Shown here: positions 5,061 through 9,569 of the stretch, in pieces
Numbering within the stretch: position 1 is the stretch's first letter
How the letters are laid out: every line of letters begins with the position of its first letter
DNA from: Gemmatimonadaceae bacterium
GTDB lineage: Bacteria > Gemmatimonadota > Gemmatimonadetes > Gemmatimonadales > Gemmatimonadaceae
Length of the DNA: 39,505 nt
Assembly: GCA_035533015.1 (NCBI GenBank)
Contig: DATLUQ010000003.1
Location: 1 to 39,505, forward strand
Direction: 5' to 3'
Program-made: the position numbers and the translations under genes
Notes under the pieces: model-generated
Database searches by the model: none
What the model was told of the DNA's origin: nothing
What the model saw: only the letters and a program-made list of their open reading frames with translations

Positions 5061-7424
5061 TCACTCACCCGTCTTGAGACATTCCACGATGTCGAGCGCG
5101 CGAATGCGCTGCCGCATGGCCAACCCCGACGCGCCGAACGCGCCGGCAATCACCGCCGCCGCGAACCCGTACGCCGTCCAACTGACCACCAGCGGAATCC
5201 GGAACAGCTCCGTGTTGCCCACGGACGATACCAACGCGCACAGCGCATAGCCCACCCCCACGCCCACCGCCATCCCGGCCACGGTGAGCAGGATCTGCTC
5301 CCCGAACACCATCATCGTCACCTCGCGCTTGGAGAAGCCGAGCACGCGCAGGCTGGCCAGCTCGCGCGACCGCTCCGACAGCGAGACCCGGGCGCCGTTG
5401 TAAACCACCCCGAACGCGATGATCACGGCGAAGATCACCGCGATGCCGAGCGTCAGCTGGAACGAATCGGCCACCGTGCGCTCGAATCCTGCCAGCGCGG
5501 CCGACCGGATGCCGATGCCCACCAGCGCCGGCTGCTCCTTGAGGGTGAGATACAACTCGCCCTCGCGGCGCGGATCCACCGCGAGCAGGGCGCCGGAGAT
5601 CGCCCGACGCTCGCCGGTGAGCCGGGCCGCGAACTCCAGATCGGCGTACGCGCTGGCGCCGAGCATCTCGTTGGCCACCGCGGATACCGCCACGCGCACC
5701 GTGCGGCGCGTGCCCTCGCGCAGCTCCACGGTCAGCGAATCGCCGGGCGCCACGTGCAGCACCTCGGCCAGCTTGGTGGTGAGCAGCACGCCGCTGGACG
5801 GCACATGGTGCACGCGCATGTCCTGATCCACGATCTGCCGCAGCTCCGCGCCCGCCGGCAACGCGATCAGCGCCGTGCGCCGCTCCACCGTGCCATGGCG
5901 CAGCGCCACGGGCACTATCCGGAGCGGCTCGACGGCCAGCACGCCCGGCAGTCTCCCGAGGGCGTCGATGGCCGTGCGTGGAGCCGCCTCACGGAAGGTG
6001 ACGCTGATGTCCTCACGCTGCACGTACTGGAACTGCACGTCCTTGATCCGGTCGATGGCGCTGAACGAGAACCGCGAGACCACGAGCATCGCGAATGCGA
6101 GCGCGATGCCAGTGACGGCCGCCACGGCCCGCAGCGGCCGGCGCGCCGTATTGCGCGCGACGATCCGCGCCGACGGCGCGAGCCACCGCTGCACGCCCAG
6201 CGTCTCGAGCAGCCCGGCCTCGAACCACGCCGGCGCGGGCGGCCGCATTCCTTCGGCGGGCGGGAGTCGCACTGCCGAACGCACGGCGATCGCCGCCCCC
6301 GCCACGGCCGCACCGGCCGCGATCAGGCACGCCGCCAGCGCCACCCCCCAGTCGGGGCGGACCGTGGCCACCGGAAAGCGATAGTACCGCGCGTAGATCC
6401 CCGCCGTGGCCTCCGCCAGCCGGAACCCGAGCGGCACGCCAACCACGGCGCCGGCGCCCACCGGCGTGAGCGCGAGCAACAGGTAGTGCGCGGCGATCTC
6501 GCGGTTGGTATACCCGAACGCCTTGAGCAGCGCGATCTGCCCGCGCTGCGTGGCCACGAGCCGCGACAGCACGACGTTGAGCAGAAACGCCGTGACGCCG
6601 AGCAGGATGGCCGGCATGATCACCGCGCCCACGTTGTTCTGCTCGATCTCGTCCGTGAGGAACTTGTGCGATACGTGCTCCGACCGGCCGTAGGCGCCCA
6701 GCGCGCCGTAGGGCTCCAGCACCCGGTCCACGGCGTCGATCACGTCCGGCTCCGAGGCGTCGGGCGCGAGCTGCAGCGCCATCGCGTTGAACCCGGTCTC
6801 GAGGCCCGTGGCCGAGGCGAGCAGCGCCCGCGGCGTCCAGATCACCCCGAACAGCCGGTTGTCGGGAAAGAGTTCCCCGCCCTGCATCTCGTAGATGTAC
6901 TCCGGCGAGATCGCGATCCCCACCACGTGCACGCGCTCCCACCGGCCGTTGAGCACGGCGCCCAGCGAATCGCCGGGCACGAGTCGGTTGGCCTGCGCGA
7001 ATGCCTCGCTGATCAGCACCTCACGCGGCGCGCCCGCCGCCGGCATGCGCCCCACGCGCACGTGCGGCACGTTGAGCAGCGGCTGGCCCGATGCCGGGAT
7101 CGACACGAACCGCCCGACGGCCGGCTCGGCCAGCCCCGGTACGTCGAGCACCGCCTCGAAGATGATCCTCGGCTCCACCACGCGAACGCCGGGGATCTCC
7201 GCGATGCGCCGCGCCACCGACGCCGGGGCGCGCTTGACCAGCACGAACACATCGGCGAAGTGATAGTCGCGGTAGTAGTTGGCCTGCGAATCGGCCAGGA
7301 ACCCGCGCATGCTGCGCAGCGTCACGAACAGCGCGATCCCCGATACCGCGACCATCGCCACCGCGAGCAGCGGACCGGCCAGCCCCATCACGTCGCGCGC
7401 CAGCTTCCGGTTGAGCATCCGCAT
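5061..7424 (-). CDS. ABC transporter permease with two FtsX domains
   Basis: A 787-residue permease of the MacB/LolC/FtsX superfamily. A membrane segment near residues 17-35 is followed by a large periplasmic domain (about 40-265). The first FtsX block of three helices comes next (about 270-385, with [20 protein letters not shown]). A further segment (about 430-450) and a second periplasmic domain follow, and the last FtsX block ends the protein (about 660-775, with [20 protein letters not shown]). Neither copy carries an ATPase domain, which is supplied by the gene just upstream (stop 3 bases before this start). Together with the adaptor this forms a mechanotransmission-type exporter rather than a classical channel-type ABC transporter. 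Substrate unknown; the divergent neighbour encodes a RiPP-like precursor. Confidence 0.9.
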
Positions 7425-7427
7425 GCC

Positions 7428-8135
7428 TCACCACTCCAGCTCGGCGGGGTCGCGCCGGGCCGGGTTCGCCTCGATGGAGGCGATGCGCCCGTTGCGCATG
7501 CGCAGCACGCGGTCGGCCATCTGGGCGATGGTCGCGTTGTGGGTGATGATCACGAGCGTGGTGCCCAACTCGCGGTTGGCGCGCGCCAGCGCCTGGAGCA
7601 CGACGATGCCCGTCTCGGCGTCGAGCGCGCCGGTGGGCTCGTCGCAGAGCAGCACATCGGGCCGCTTGGCGATGGCCCGCGCGATCGCCACCCGCTGCTG
7701 CTCGCCCCCCGACATCTGCGACGGGAAGTGGTCCAGGCGCTCGGCCAGCCCCACCAGGCGCAGCGCCTCGACCGCCGGCATGGGCCGCTCCGCGATCTCG
7801 GTGACCAGTTCCACGTTCTCACGCGCCGTGAGACTGGGCAGGAGATTATAGAACTGGAATACGAACCCCACGTGTTCGCGGCGGTATCGCGTGAGCGCGG
7901 CATCGCCGGCGCCCACCAGCTGGTGGTCGCGGAAGTTCACCTCGCCGCCGCTGGGCGCGTCCAGCCCACCGAGGATGTTGAGCAGCGTGGACTTGCCGCT
8001 GCCGGAGGGGCCGAGGATCACCACGACCTCGCCTTCCACCAGGTCGAGGTCCACGCCGGTCAGCGCATGGACGTCGACGTCGCCCATGTGATAGGTCTTG
8101 GTGAGACCGCGCGCGTGGAAGAGTCCCGTGCCCAT
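7428..8135 (-). CDS. ABC transporter ATP-binding protein (MacB/LolD-type)
   Basis: A 235-residue cytoplasmic ATPase. The Walker A motif is GPSGSGKST, the Q-loop region is [14 protein letters not shown], the signature is [15 protein letters not shown], the Walker B is [12 protein letters not shown] and the switch His lies in [22 protein letters not shown] is characteristic of the LolD/MacB/FtsE subgroup that partners FtsX-type permeases. I start it at the ATG at 8135 ([15 protein letters not shown]); an in-frame TTG at 8165 would add ten residues without a ribosome-binding site. First gene of the exporter operon, so its promoter must lie in the 220-base region shared with the divergent peptide gene. 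Confidence 0.9.
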
Positions 8136-8355
8136 ACGCTGCACCGTGCCGGTTCTGTCCGGCAATGTCTGTCGGGCAACGGTGCCCGGAGCGTCGGGGA
8201 ATGCAGGGTCGGGCCGGTCGCCCGGCGTTCCGGTCGCTGGGCGGGCGGCGGAGCGCCTTGCCGCCGGTCAGATTGTCCCGAATCGCATGGGAGCACACGC
8301 GAGTTTCGGCCTCGAGTACATGGACGCCGGATATGGACTCCGATATCTATCAACT

Positions 8356-8556
8356 ATGAATCGCCCGAACCCTCTGCTTCCATCGCCCACGCATCGGCCC
8401 CCCGGAGCCGACGCGAACATCGCGACGCGCGAAGCGCCGCACGCGTATGCGCCGCCGCGCCTGACCGTGTTCGGCGACCTCGCGCGGCTCACCACGAAGG
8501 TCGGCACGAGGGGCAAGAAGGACGGGGGCGGGCACAACAGGCGCACCGGCTACTAG
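8356..8556 (+). CDS. Lasso-peptide-type (RiPP) precursor peptide
   Basis: A 66-residue peptide from the ATG at 8356. Residues 31-46 read YAPPRLTVFGDLARLT and match every position of the lasso leader signature Y-x2-P-x-L-x3-G-x5-T: Y31, P34, L36, G40 and T46, with the classical spacing. In that family the conserved Thr is the penultimate leader residue, so the core would be K48-Y66 (KVGTRGKKDGGGHNRRTGY). D56 is then core position 9, the usual ring-closing position for a nine-residue macrolactam. Lys at core position 1 is unusual. The first 30 residues are Pro-rich and less typical. No Shine-Dalgarno sequence is visible; AT-rich bases directly before the ATG (8342-8355) would allow a leaderless transcript. 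In-frame ATGs at 8287 and 8320 are alternatives. No leader peptidase, cyclase or RRE gene lies nearby; a terminator follows at 8594. Leader match is seen; maturation is inferred. Confidence 0.7.
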   Translation: MNRPNPLLPSPTHRPPGADANIATREAPHAYAPPRLTVFGDLARLTTKVGTRGKKDGGGHNRRTGY

Positions 8557-8593
8557 CGCGTCGTTGCCGTCCCCGCCGTCGGACGGAAAAAGG

Positions 8594-8624
8594 AACGCCC
8601 CGCGCCTGATCGGCGCGGGGCGTT
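8594..8624 (-). terminator. Strong terminator of the tRNA operon
   Basis: A perfect 13-bp stem (8594-8606 with 8612-8624) closes a 5-base loop. On the minus strand it is followed by CCTTTTTCC, so it terminates the tRNA operon. It lies 38 bases past the stop of the convergent peptide gene and could also stop that transcript, although there is no T tract on the plus strand. Confidence 0.85.
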
Positions 8625-8648
8625 CGGCTCTATATGAGTTCTCTCCAG

Positions 8649-8720
8649 AGCCAGCGGTCGGGATTGAACCGACGACCGCCCGATTACGAATCGGGTGCTC
8701 TACCACTGAGCTACGCTGGC
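8649..8720 (-). tRNA. tRNA-Thr (anticodon CGT)
   Basis: The acceptor GCCAGCG (8714-8720) pairs with 8650-8656, and the discriminator is U. The stem CCCGA/TCGGG holds the loop TTCGTAA, giving anticodon CGT. Last gene of the seven-tRNA operon; CCA is not encoded. Confidence 0.93.
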
Positions 8721-8748
8721 GAAGCGACCGCCAGGCGATCGCCGAACA

Positions 8749-8830
8749 TGCCCTGGCGCGGACTCGAACCGCGACGCCTTGCGGCACCACCCCCTCAAGA
8801 TGGCGTGTCTACCAATTTCACCACCAGGGC
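8749..8830 (-). tRNA. tRNA-Leu (anticodon GAG)
   Basis: An 82-base tRNA with a long variable arm (GTGCCGCAAGGCGT region), as expected of a class II tRNA. The acceptor GCCCTGG (8824-8830) pairs with 8750-8756, and the discriminator is A. The anticodon loop is TTGAGGG between CCATC and GGTGG, giving GAG. Confidence 0.93.
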
Positions 8831-8839
8831 AAACAACTA

Positions 8840-8914
8840 CGGGGCCGACGGGGCTCGAACCCGCGACCTCTCGAGTGACAGTCGAGTGCTCTAACCAAAC
8901 TGAGCTACGGCCCC
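8840..8914 (-). tRNA. tRNA-Asp (anticodon GTC)
   Basis: The acceptor GGGGCCG (8908-8914) pairs with 8841-8847, and the discriminator is G, as usual for Asp. The anticodon stem CTCGA/TCGAG encloses CTGTCAC, giving GTC. The D loop is slightly long (AGTTTGGTTAGA), making 75 bases. Confidence 0.93.
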
Positions 8915-9052
8915 CAAACACGACAACACACACCGACACGCTCAGAGCCGTGAGCTGACAGCTGAGAGCTACCTGCACCTGCAAACGATCCGACTGTTCA
9001 CCGTCCTACTGTCCCACCGCCCTCCCGTCCTACCGTGGTATCGGTAGTCCGA

Positions 9053-9124
9053 TAGCCCGTAGGGGAATCGAACCCCTCTCTGCACCGTGAAAGGGTGCCG
9101 TCCTGACCGATAGACGAACGGGCC
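9053..9124 (-). tRNA. tRNA-Glu (anticodon TTC)
   Basis: The acceptor GGCCCGT (9118-9124) pairs with ACGGGCT, giving a G1-U72 wobble; the discriminator is A. The stem GCACC/GGTGC holds CTTTCAC, giving anticodon TTC. The D arm TCGTCTA is typical of tRNA-Glu. Confidence 0.92.
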
Positions 9125-9137
9125 TCTCGTCCCAACA

Positions 9138-9210
9138 TAGCGGTAACGGGATTCGAACCCGTGTTTGAGCCTTGAGAGGGCTCCGTCCTAGTCCCCTAGA
9201 CGATACCGCC
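9138..9210 (-). tRNA. tRNA-Glu (anticodon CTC)
   Basis: The acceptor GGCGGTA (9204-9210) pairs with TACCGCT, again with G1-U72 and an A discriminator. The stem GAGCC/GGCTC holds CTCTCAA, giving anticodon CTC. It is a second Glu isoacceptor directly upstream of the TTC one. Confidence 0.92.
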
Positions 9211-9320
9211 AAGGCGCGCCGCCACGGCCACCAGGCCCTGACGGTTCTCTTGCTGGAAGCCGCCCGCCCTTCCAGGACCTGCGACCCCCTCCGTCTCCCG
9301 TCGTCCTCTCAATCATCGAA

Positions 9321-9393
9321 CAGGCCGGGAGGGACTTGAACCCCCAACCGCTGGTTTTGGAGACCAGTGCTCTACCAGTTGAGCTACCGACCT
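9321..9393 (-). tRNA. tRNA-Trp (anticodon CCA)
   Basis: The acceptor AGGTCGG (9387-9393) pairs with 9322-9328, and the discriminator is G. The stem CTGGT/ACCAG holds CTCCAAA, giving anticodon CCA. It is the only Trp tRNA in the window. Confidence 0.93.
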
Positions 9394-9494
9394 ACATCGC
9401 AGCTGCGAGCGATCCGCCATCAGCTGTCGGTCCCCACCCTTCCACACCAACTGCAACCGACAACTCTCAGCGGATTGCCGTGAGCTGCCGTTAG

Positions 9495-9569
9495 GGTGAC
9501 TGACGGGAATTGAACCCGCAACCCCCGGAGCCACAGTCCGGTGCTCTAACCAATTGAGCTACAGCCACC
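9495..9569 (-). tRNA. tRNA-His (anticodon GTG)
   Basis: The acceptor GTGGCTG (9562-9568) pairs with 9496-9502. An extra G at position -1 (9569) faces C73 (9495), the identity pair of tRNA-His. The stem CCGGA/TCCGG holds CTGTGGC, giving anticodon GTG. First gene of the tRNA operon. Confidence 0.94.

Follow-up and report, generated by a model that had tools for sequence, protein, structure and literature searches.

A stand-alone lasso-type precursor gene in a Gemmatimonadaceae bacterium, probably processed by enzymes encoded elsewhere

The prochlorosins are lanthipeptides in which a single modifying enzyme serves precursors scattered through the genome, and for these trans-processing has been demonstrated. 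Amongst the lasso peptides, members that begin with Leu or Trp exist (citrulassin and fusilassin), so that the list of observed first residues given in a 2025 paper is incomplete. From a non-exhaustive search we know of no proven lasso peptide that begins with Lys. The 2025 list comprises Gly, Cys, Ser and Ala, and the same paper added Asn as a new first residue (PMC12670498). Lasso leaders carry the motif YxxPxL at positions -17 to -12 and a Thr at position -2 (PMC10368454). The split-B lasso systems, which have a PqqD-type B1 and a B2, include paeninodin and the bsf system of the Bradymonadales, which has a kinase and carries Ile at -2 (PMC5067487, PMC10368454).

The window analysed here is a stretch of 39,505 nucleotides from a Gemmatimonadaceae bacterium whose assembly (G000; 3.03 Mb in 66 contigs, 95% complete) was compared with those of three congeners (G102, G103 and G104). 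It holds a small gene that most likely encodes the raw material of a lasso peptide, with the translation MNRPNPLLPSPTHRPPGADANIATREAPHAYAPPRLTVFGDLARLTTKVGTRGKKDGGGHNRRTGY followed by a stop codon. The features of the locus are as follows.

5061-7424, minus strand: LolDE-type permease, left neighbour, named from sequence
7428-8165, minus strand: LolDE-type ABC ATPase, left neighbour, named from sequence
8344..8349, plus strand: TATA-like hexamer TATCTA, 6 nt before the ATG, a possible -10 element
8356..8556, plus strand: lasso-type precursor gene, 66 aa plus stop, from translation, motif, family alignment and shared start position
8446..8496, plus strand: leader recognition region from Y31 to T47, positions -17 to -1 (Y-17, P-14, L-12, G-8, T-2)
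8497..8553, plus strand: predicted 19-residue core KVGTRGKKDGGGHNRRTGY, its cleavage site also a prediction
8497-8523, plus strand: predicted ring from K48 to D56
8593..8625, minus strand: strong hairpin with T-run, probable terminator of the tRNA operon
8648..9568, minus strand: tRNA cluster Thr-Leu-Asp-Glu-Glu-Trp-His, which marks the locus in the congeners

The hairpin may also bound the precursor transcript. The leader motif Y31-x2-P34-x-L36-x3-G40-x5-T46, which an earlier sequence-only reading had placed at residues 31-46, is present in the translation with exactly that spacing. It occurs once in the six frames of the window, the expectation being 0.015 under a first-order and 0.005 under a fifth-order Markov model, and no simulated window out of 400 had it together with an acid at position 9 of the core. 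Both published rulers, the Thr at -2 and the YxxPxL at -17 to -12, agree in making K48 the first residue of the predicted core, so that D56 falls at position 9 and the core K48-Y66 proposed in that reading stands. The ORF has the Y-17, P-14, L-12 and Thr-2 of a lasso leader and, in D56, an acid at core positions 7-9, with K48 occupying the place where Gly, Cys, Ser or Ala is customary, albeit not defining. No Pfam match was found for the precursor. Two NCBIfam models give suggestive scores beneath their cut-offs: lasso_cyano (NF033528) aligns with residues 30-56 (E=5e-4, 19.9 bits against a cut-off of 33) and lasso_leader_L3 (NF033521) reaches 18.2 bits, which is 0.8 bit under its cut-off of 19. 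Amongst genus members the highest lasso_cyano score is 31.1 bits, all those tested lying below the cut-off, and lasso_leader_L3 reaches 20.9 bits, with only L048 and L054 above the cut-off.

Of 179 genomes from the same family, 31 gave homologues in a profile search; a later profile, applied with a stricter threshold to a sample of 395 genomes from the phylum, gave them in 29. All three congeners carry a homologous gene at the same site, between the LolDE-type ABC operon and tRNA-Thr, the contig of G103 ending shortly past that tRNA; the LolDE-type pair (5061..8165, minus strand), which is separate from the precursor gene, forms the left neighbours there too. When the four syntenic homologues are aligned, their start codons fall at one and the same position. 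A lack of homologues with a conserved leader had been named beforehand as a finding that would tell against a lasso precursor, and it is contradicted by the congeners' syntenic copies, which keep both leader and core. The window's genome has a second stand-alone precursor (C39:10383), with counterparts in all three congeners recognised by the same neighbour gene and, in G102 and G104, by a longer common gene order. Across 12 precursors of the genus the leader residues Y-17, P-14, L-12, G-8 and T-2 are invariant, as are G3, G6, D9 and an R-T-G near the end of the core.

A wider set of 37 unique cores, mainly from Gemmatimonadota and excluding the two genes of the window's genome, was chosen by the leader pattern and an acid at core position 7-9. 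D9 is present in 36 of the 37, a figure to be read in the light of the acid that the selection demanded at 7-9. The first residue is Lys in 15 cores, Thr in eight, Ala in eight, Asn in three, Arg in two and Val in one; in the 22 unique cores that have a cyclase-like ORF no more than 3 kb away the corresponding figures are Lys 13, Ala five, Thr three and Asn one. Since Lys is the commonest first residue, the cyclase-linked cores included, Lys-1 is, as far as these predicted cores go, a trait of the precursor family. It had previously been described as an oddity, which holds in relation to the experimentally known lasso peptides but not within the family, where it is typical. In another genus of the family (L057, L058, L059, L060, L062, L063 and L064) cyclase-linked precursors occur in tandem, with a leader of the W type and cores of the form KVDxxGxxDGG...RT, with Asp at both positions 3 and 9. 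Similar cyclase-linked precursors also occur beyond the phylum, in a Desulfobacterales MAG (L094, core TASGSGRQDGTGNYGTARYST) and in Enhydrobacter aerosaccus (L096, core AVGPVGAPDWG...).

In G102 and G104 a further precursor lies about 100 bp from the gene for a protein of 629 aa that combines a glutamine-amidotransferase with an Asn_synthase domain. Family scans were carried out on G104's copy of the cluster, in which the best NCBIfam model for this protein is the lasso cyclase NF033535 (307.8 bits, below the 525 that the model demands). Ahead of it comes a PqqD protein (PF05402, 65.7 bits), which amongst solved structures best matches a lasso PqqD chaperone and TbiB1; behind it lie an HprK-like kinase, an NTP_transf_5 protein and an ABC transporter. 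The cluster yielded no B2 gene in either genome. That paralogues adjoin genes for PqqD/B1, a lasso cyclase, an HprK-like protein and an ABC transporter is strong evidence, at the level of gene content, for placing the precursor family in the lasso type. The HprK-like kinase and NTP_transf_5 protein of the cyclase cluster correspond to L053:5876-8133 and L051:10100-12280. Through them the peptides may acquire a phosphate or some other modification.

The situation in the window's own genome is different. No lasso peptidase, cyclase or PqqD gene was found on the window contig (39 kb), as had been claimed from the sequence, and all of the genome-wide Asn_synthase and Transglut_core3 matches are on other contigs. 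B1 and cyclase genes adjoin the paralogues of G102 and G104 but no precursor in G000. PqqD gave no match anywhere in the G000 assembly and the lasso-cyclase profile found nothing there; the best Asn_synthase match proved to be QueC and was rejected as a cyclase, the other three being weak and under the cut-off. The genome-wide search for enzymes that had been proposed thus yielded a B2-like peptidase but neither cyclase nor PqqD. The island of G104 together with its flanks (G104:C62, 60000 to about 106000, at least 45 kb) is absent from G000 save for paralogue-like pieces, and the next 20 kb leftward gave only partial, paralogue-like matches; the island query matched G102 and G103, the flank queries having no positive control. 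One G000 match to the island's flank, on C35, was considered as a contig edge and turned out to be an isolated paralogue, so that no edge marks the missing island. Since the missing block also bears unrelated genes, e.g. a glutamine synthetase (named from sequence), it is simpler to suppose that a contig went unrecovered. In G103 (80% complete), where neither B2 nor cyclase was found, both contigs covering the island break off inside it and the cyclase may lie in the gap between them.

The B2-like gene of G000 (C46:1836-2243, L014), which belongs to the transglutaminase family, scores 46.8 bits against NF033537, for which the cut-off is 33, and is syntenic in two congeners (L085:2205-2588 and L086:4836-5366). 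It is the only such gene found in G000, G102 and G104 and stands alone, away from B1 and cyclase, with OmpA-like and NlpC-like neighbours and, in G000 and G102, QueE and QueC (all but QueC named from sequence). Cys68 and His107 of the protein are conserved and invariant with the B2 proteins of clusters. Beside those it is shorter and divergent, it lacks a clear counterpart of their Gly-Asp, and its third catalytic residue is unclear. The AlphaFold model is of moderate confidence (pLDDT 74, pTM 0.56); a Foldseek search of the PDB with the model produced nothing significant and a phmmer search of the PDB with the protein no match.

The dispersal of precursors is a feature of the genus. A precursor lies within 5 kb of a cyclase match in three of 12 cases in the genus and in 37 of 39 in other genera (Fisher p = 3e-6, to be taken as a guide only, since matches from one genome or from related species are not independent), leaving nine of 12 unlinked in the genus and two of 39 elsewhere; cyclase and precursor positions were compiled by hand from profile searches. 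Both exceptions outside the genus are close to contig starts. A search of titles and abstracts, with subscription papers outside its scope, revealed no report of dispersed or stand-alone lasso precursors. All nine unlinked genus precursors have a TATA-like hexamer no more than 18 nt upstream of an in-frame start, seven of them identified by a pattern scan and those of the window and C39 by reading the upstream regions, compared to eight of 139 control genes, whose start codons are less certain. The Fisher values for this enrichment, 2.7e-6 with five genes and 3.3e-10 with nine, are exploratory, since the pattern was drawn up after the upstream regions had been viewed and was later changed. A sigma-70 scan upstream of the precursor found no full promoter. 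To judge from the position of the hexamer, the precursor mRNA may be leaderless.

The locus has also changed rapidly. Between G000 and G104 DNA identity is 93.7% in the left flank and 82% in the right, and the interval from the LolD start to tRNA-Thr (about 8200-8646) is unalignable by blastn. The dS of the permease is 0.13, and the aligned part of the precursor, amounting to only 35 codons, has a dS of 0.67 and a dN of 0.37. These data fit both a cassette replaced through recombination and one that has changed very rapidly. Compared with L055, L050 and L056, the interval 8200-8646 hardly aligns among congeners, in the manner of a fast-changing or replaced cassette.

The reading to which we give good, if incomplete, credence is that of a stand-alone lasso precursor gene with its own expression, the product of which is processed in trans by a single set of enzymes shared among several dispersed precursors. 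The leader would be bound, through Y-17, P-14 and L-12, by a PqqD-type B1, the separately encoded B2-like cysteine peptidase would cleave after T47, and an asparagine-synthetase-like cyclase would close a nine-residue ring between the alpha-amine of Lys1 and the Asp9 side chain, with the basic RRTGY tail threaded through it; the product would then leave the cell by way of the ABC transporter that the cyclase cluster encodes. The B1 and cyclase of the window's strain would sit in the stretch missing from its assembly. An orphan precursor with enzymes acting in trans was also the proposal of the sequence-only reading, and it is strengthened by the syntenic homologues and by the cyclase- and B1-linked paralogues, though B1 and cyclase were seen in congeners only; with both missing from the G000 assembly, trans-processing in the window's strain is something that we infer. 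An antimicrobial or competitive function would fit a basic core and a locus that changes fast, and is speculation. A ribosome-targeting role, raised by the basic core since lariocidin is also basic, was set aside, having no sequence match behind it.

An important consideration is whether the pathway is still intact in this lineage. The B1/cyclase island may have been lost and the remaining precursors left unprocessed and decaying, which would account for an assembly that, at 95% completeness, shows no trace of cyclase, of PqqD or of the G104 island with its flanks. This we consider unlikely, as both G000 precursors retain all of the genus-invariant residues in intact frames, the absence of a block that includes an unrelated glutamine synthetase suggests an unrecovered contig, and the contigs of G103 break within the same island. 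A good deal less probable is a leader-like peptide that is bound or cut but never lassoed, yielding a linear or otherwise modified basic product: the cyclase-linked paralogues agree with the window's precursor in their core pattern, down to D9 and R-T-G, even though the unusual first residue, the basic tail and the want of an adjoining cyclase would suit such a peptide, which the HprK-like kinase and nucleotidyltransferase of the related cluster could modify. Slightly more doubtful still is a lasso precursor cut elsewhere, e.g. before Gly50 to give a seven-residue ring to D56. Such a start would put Gly, the classical residue, in first place, and G50 does not vary within the genus, but core position 3 is Asp in 13 of the 37 unique cores of relatives, so that this start fails for the family, and both rulers yield K48. 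That the ORF is a chance one without function is scarcely credible: it is short, without a Pfam match and in a GC-rich region full of spurious ORFs, yet homologues in synteny, alike in leader and core, stand in four genomes within an interval of which the rest barely aligns.

If the preferred reading of a trans-processed precursor is extended to the genus, there is perhaps an even chance of a dispersed lasso pathway in which stand-alone and probably leaderless precursors, one of them a fast-changing cassette beside a tRNA cluster, draw on a B2 encoded elsewhere and on a single cluster of B1, cyclase and exporter, giving strongly basic peptides with rings that start at Lys, Thr or Ala. Lasso mining seeks precursors beside their enzymes, and in a genus where most are unlinked many would be missed. 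Lys-1 and Thr-1 rings would broaden the known tolerance of lasso cyclases, which is of relevance to engineering, and a conserved locus with a cassette changing faster than its neighbours would offer a natural series on peptide diversification.

The comparison with known systems is closest for the split-B lasso systems, which share the YxxPxL and Thr-2 leader, a PqqD-type B1, a B2 peptidase and an asparagine-synthetase-like cyclase, an HprK-like kinase being present in the congeners' cluster. They differ in that most precursors and the B2-like gene here are away from the cyclase cluster, and in that the first residue is Lys, Thr or Ala with a predicted nine-residue ring to Asp, whereas bsf has Gly1-Asp8. 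The lasso_cyano (NF033528) and lasso_leader_L3 (NF033521) families resemble the precursor in leader and early core, at scores beneath their cut-offs for the window ORF. Metanodin (PMC12670498) likewise has Thr at -2 and a ring that starts with a non-classical residue, but that residue is Asn and the cluster is ordinary, in contrast to the mostly Lys, Thr or Ala cores and dispersed precursors described here. Lariocidin (PMC11451635) is also a strongly basic lasso peptide, although its ring is Ser1-Asp8, and a target common to it and the window peptide would be speculation. The genus precursors are scattered much as those of the prochlorosins are, trans-processing being demonstrated there and inferred here, and would be the lasso counterpart of the scattered prochlorosin genes.
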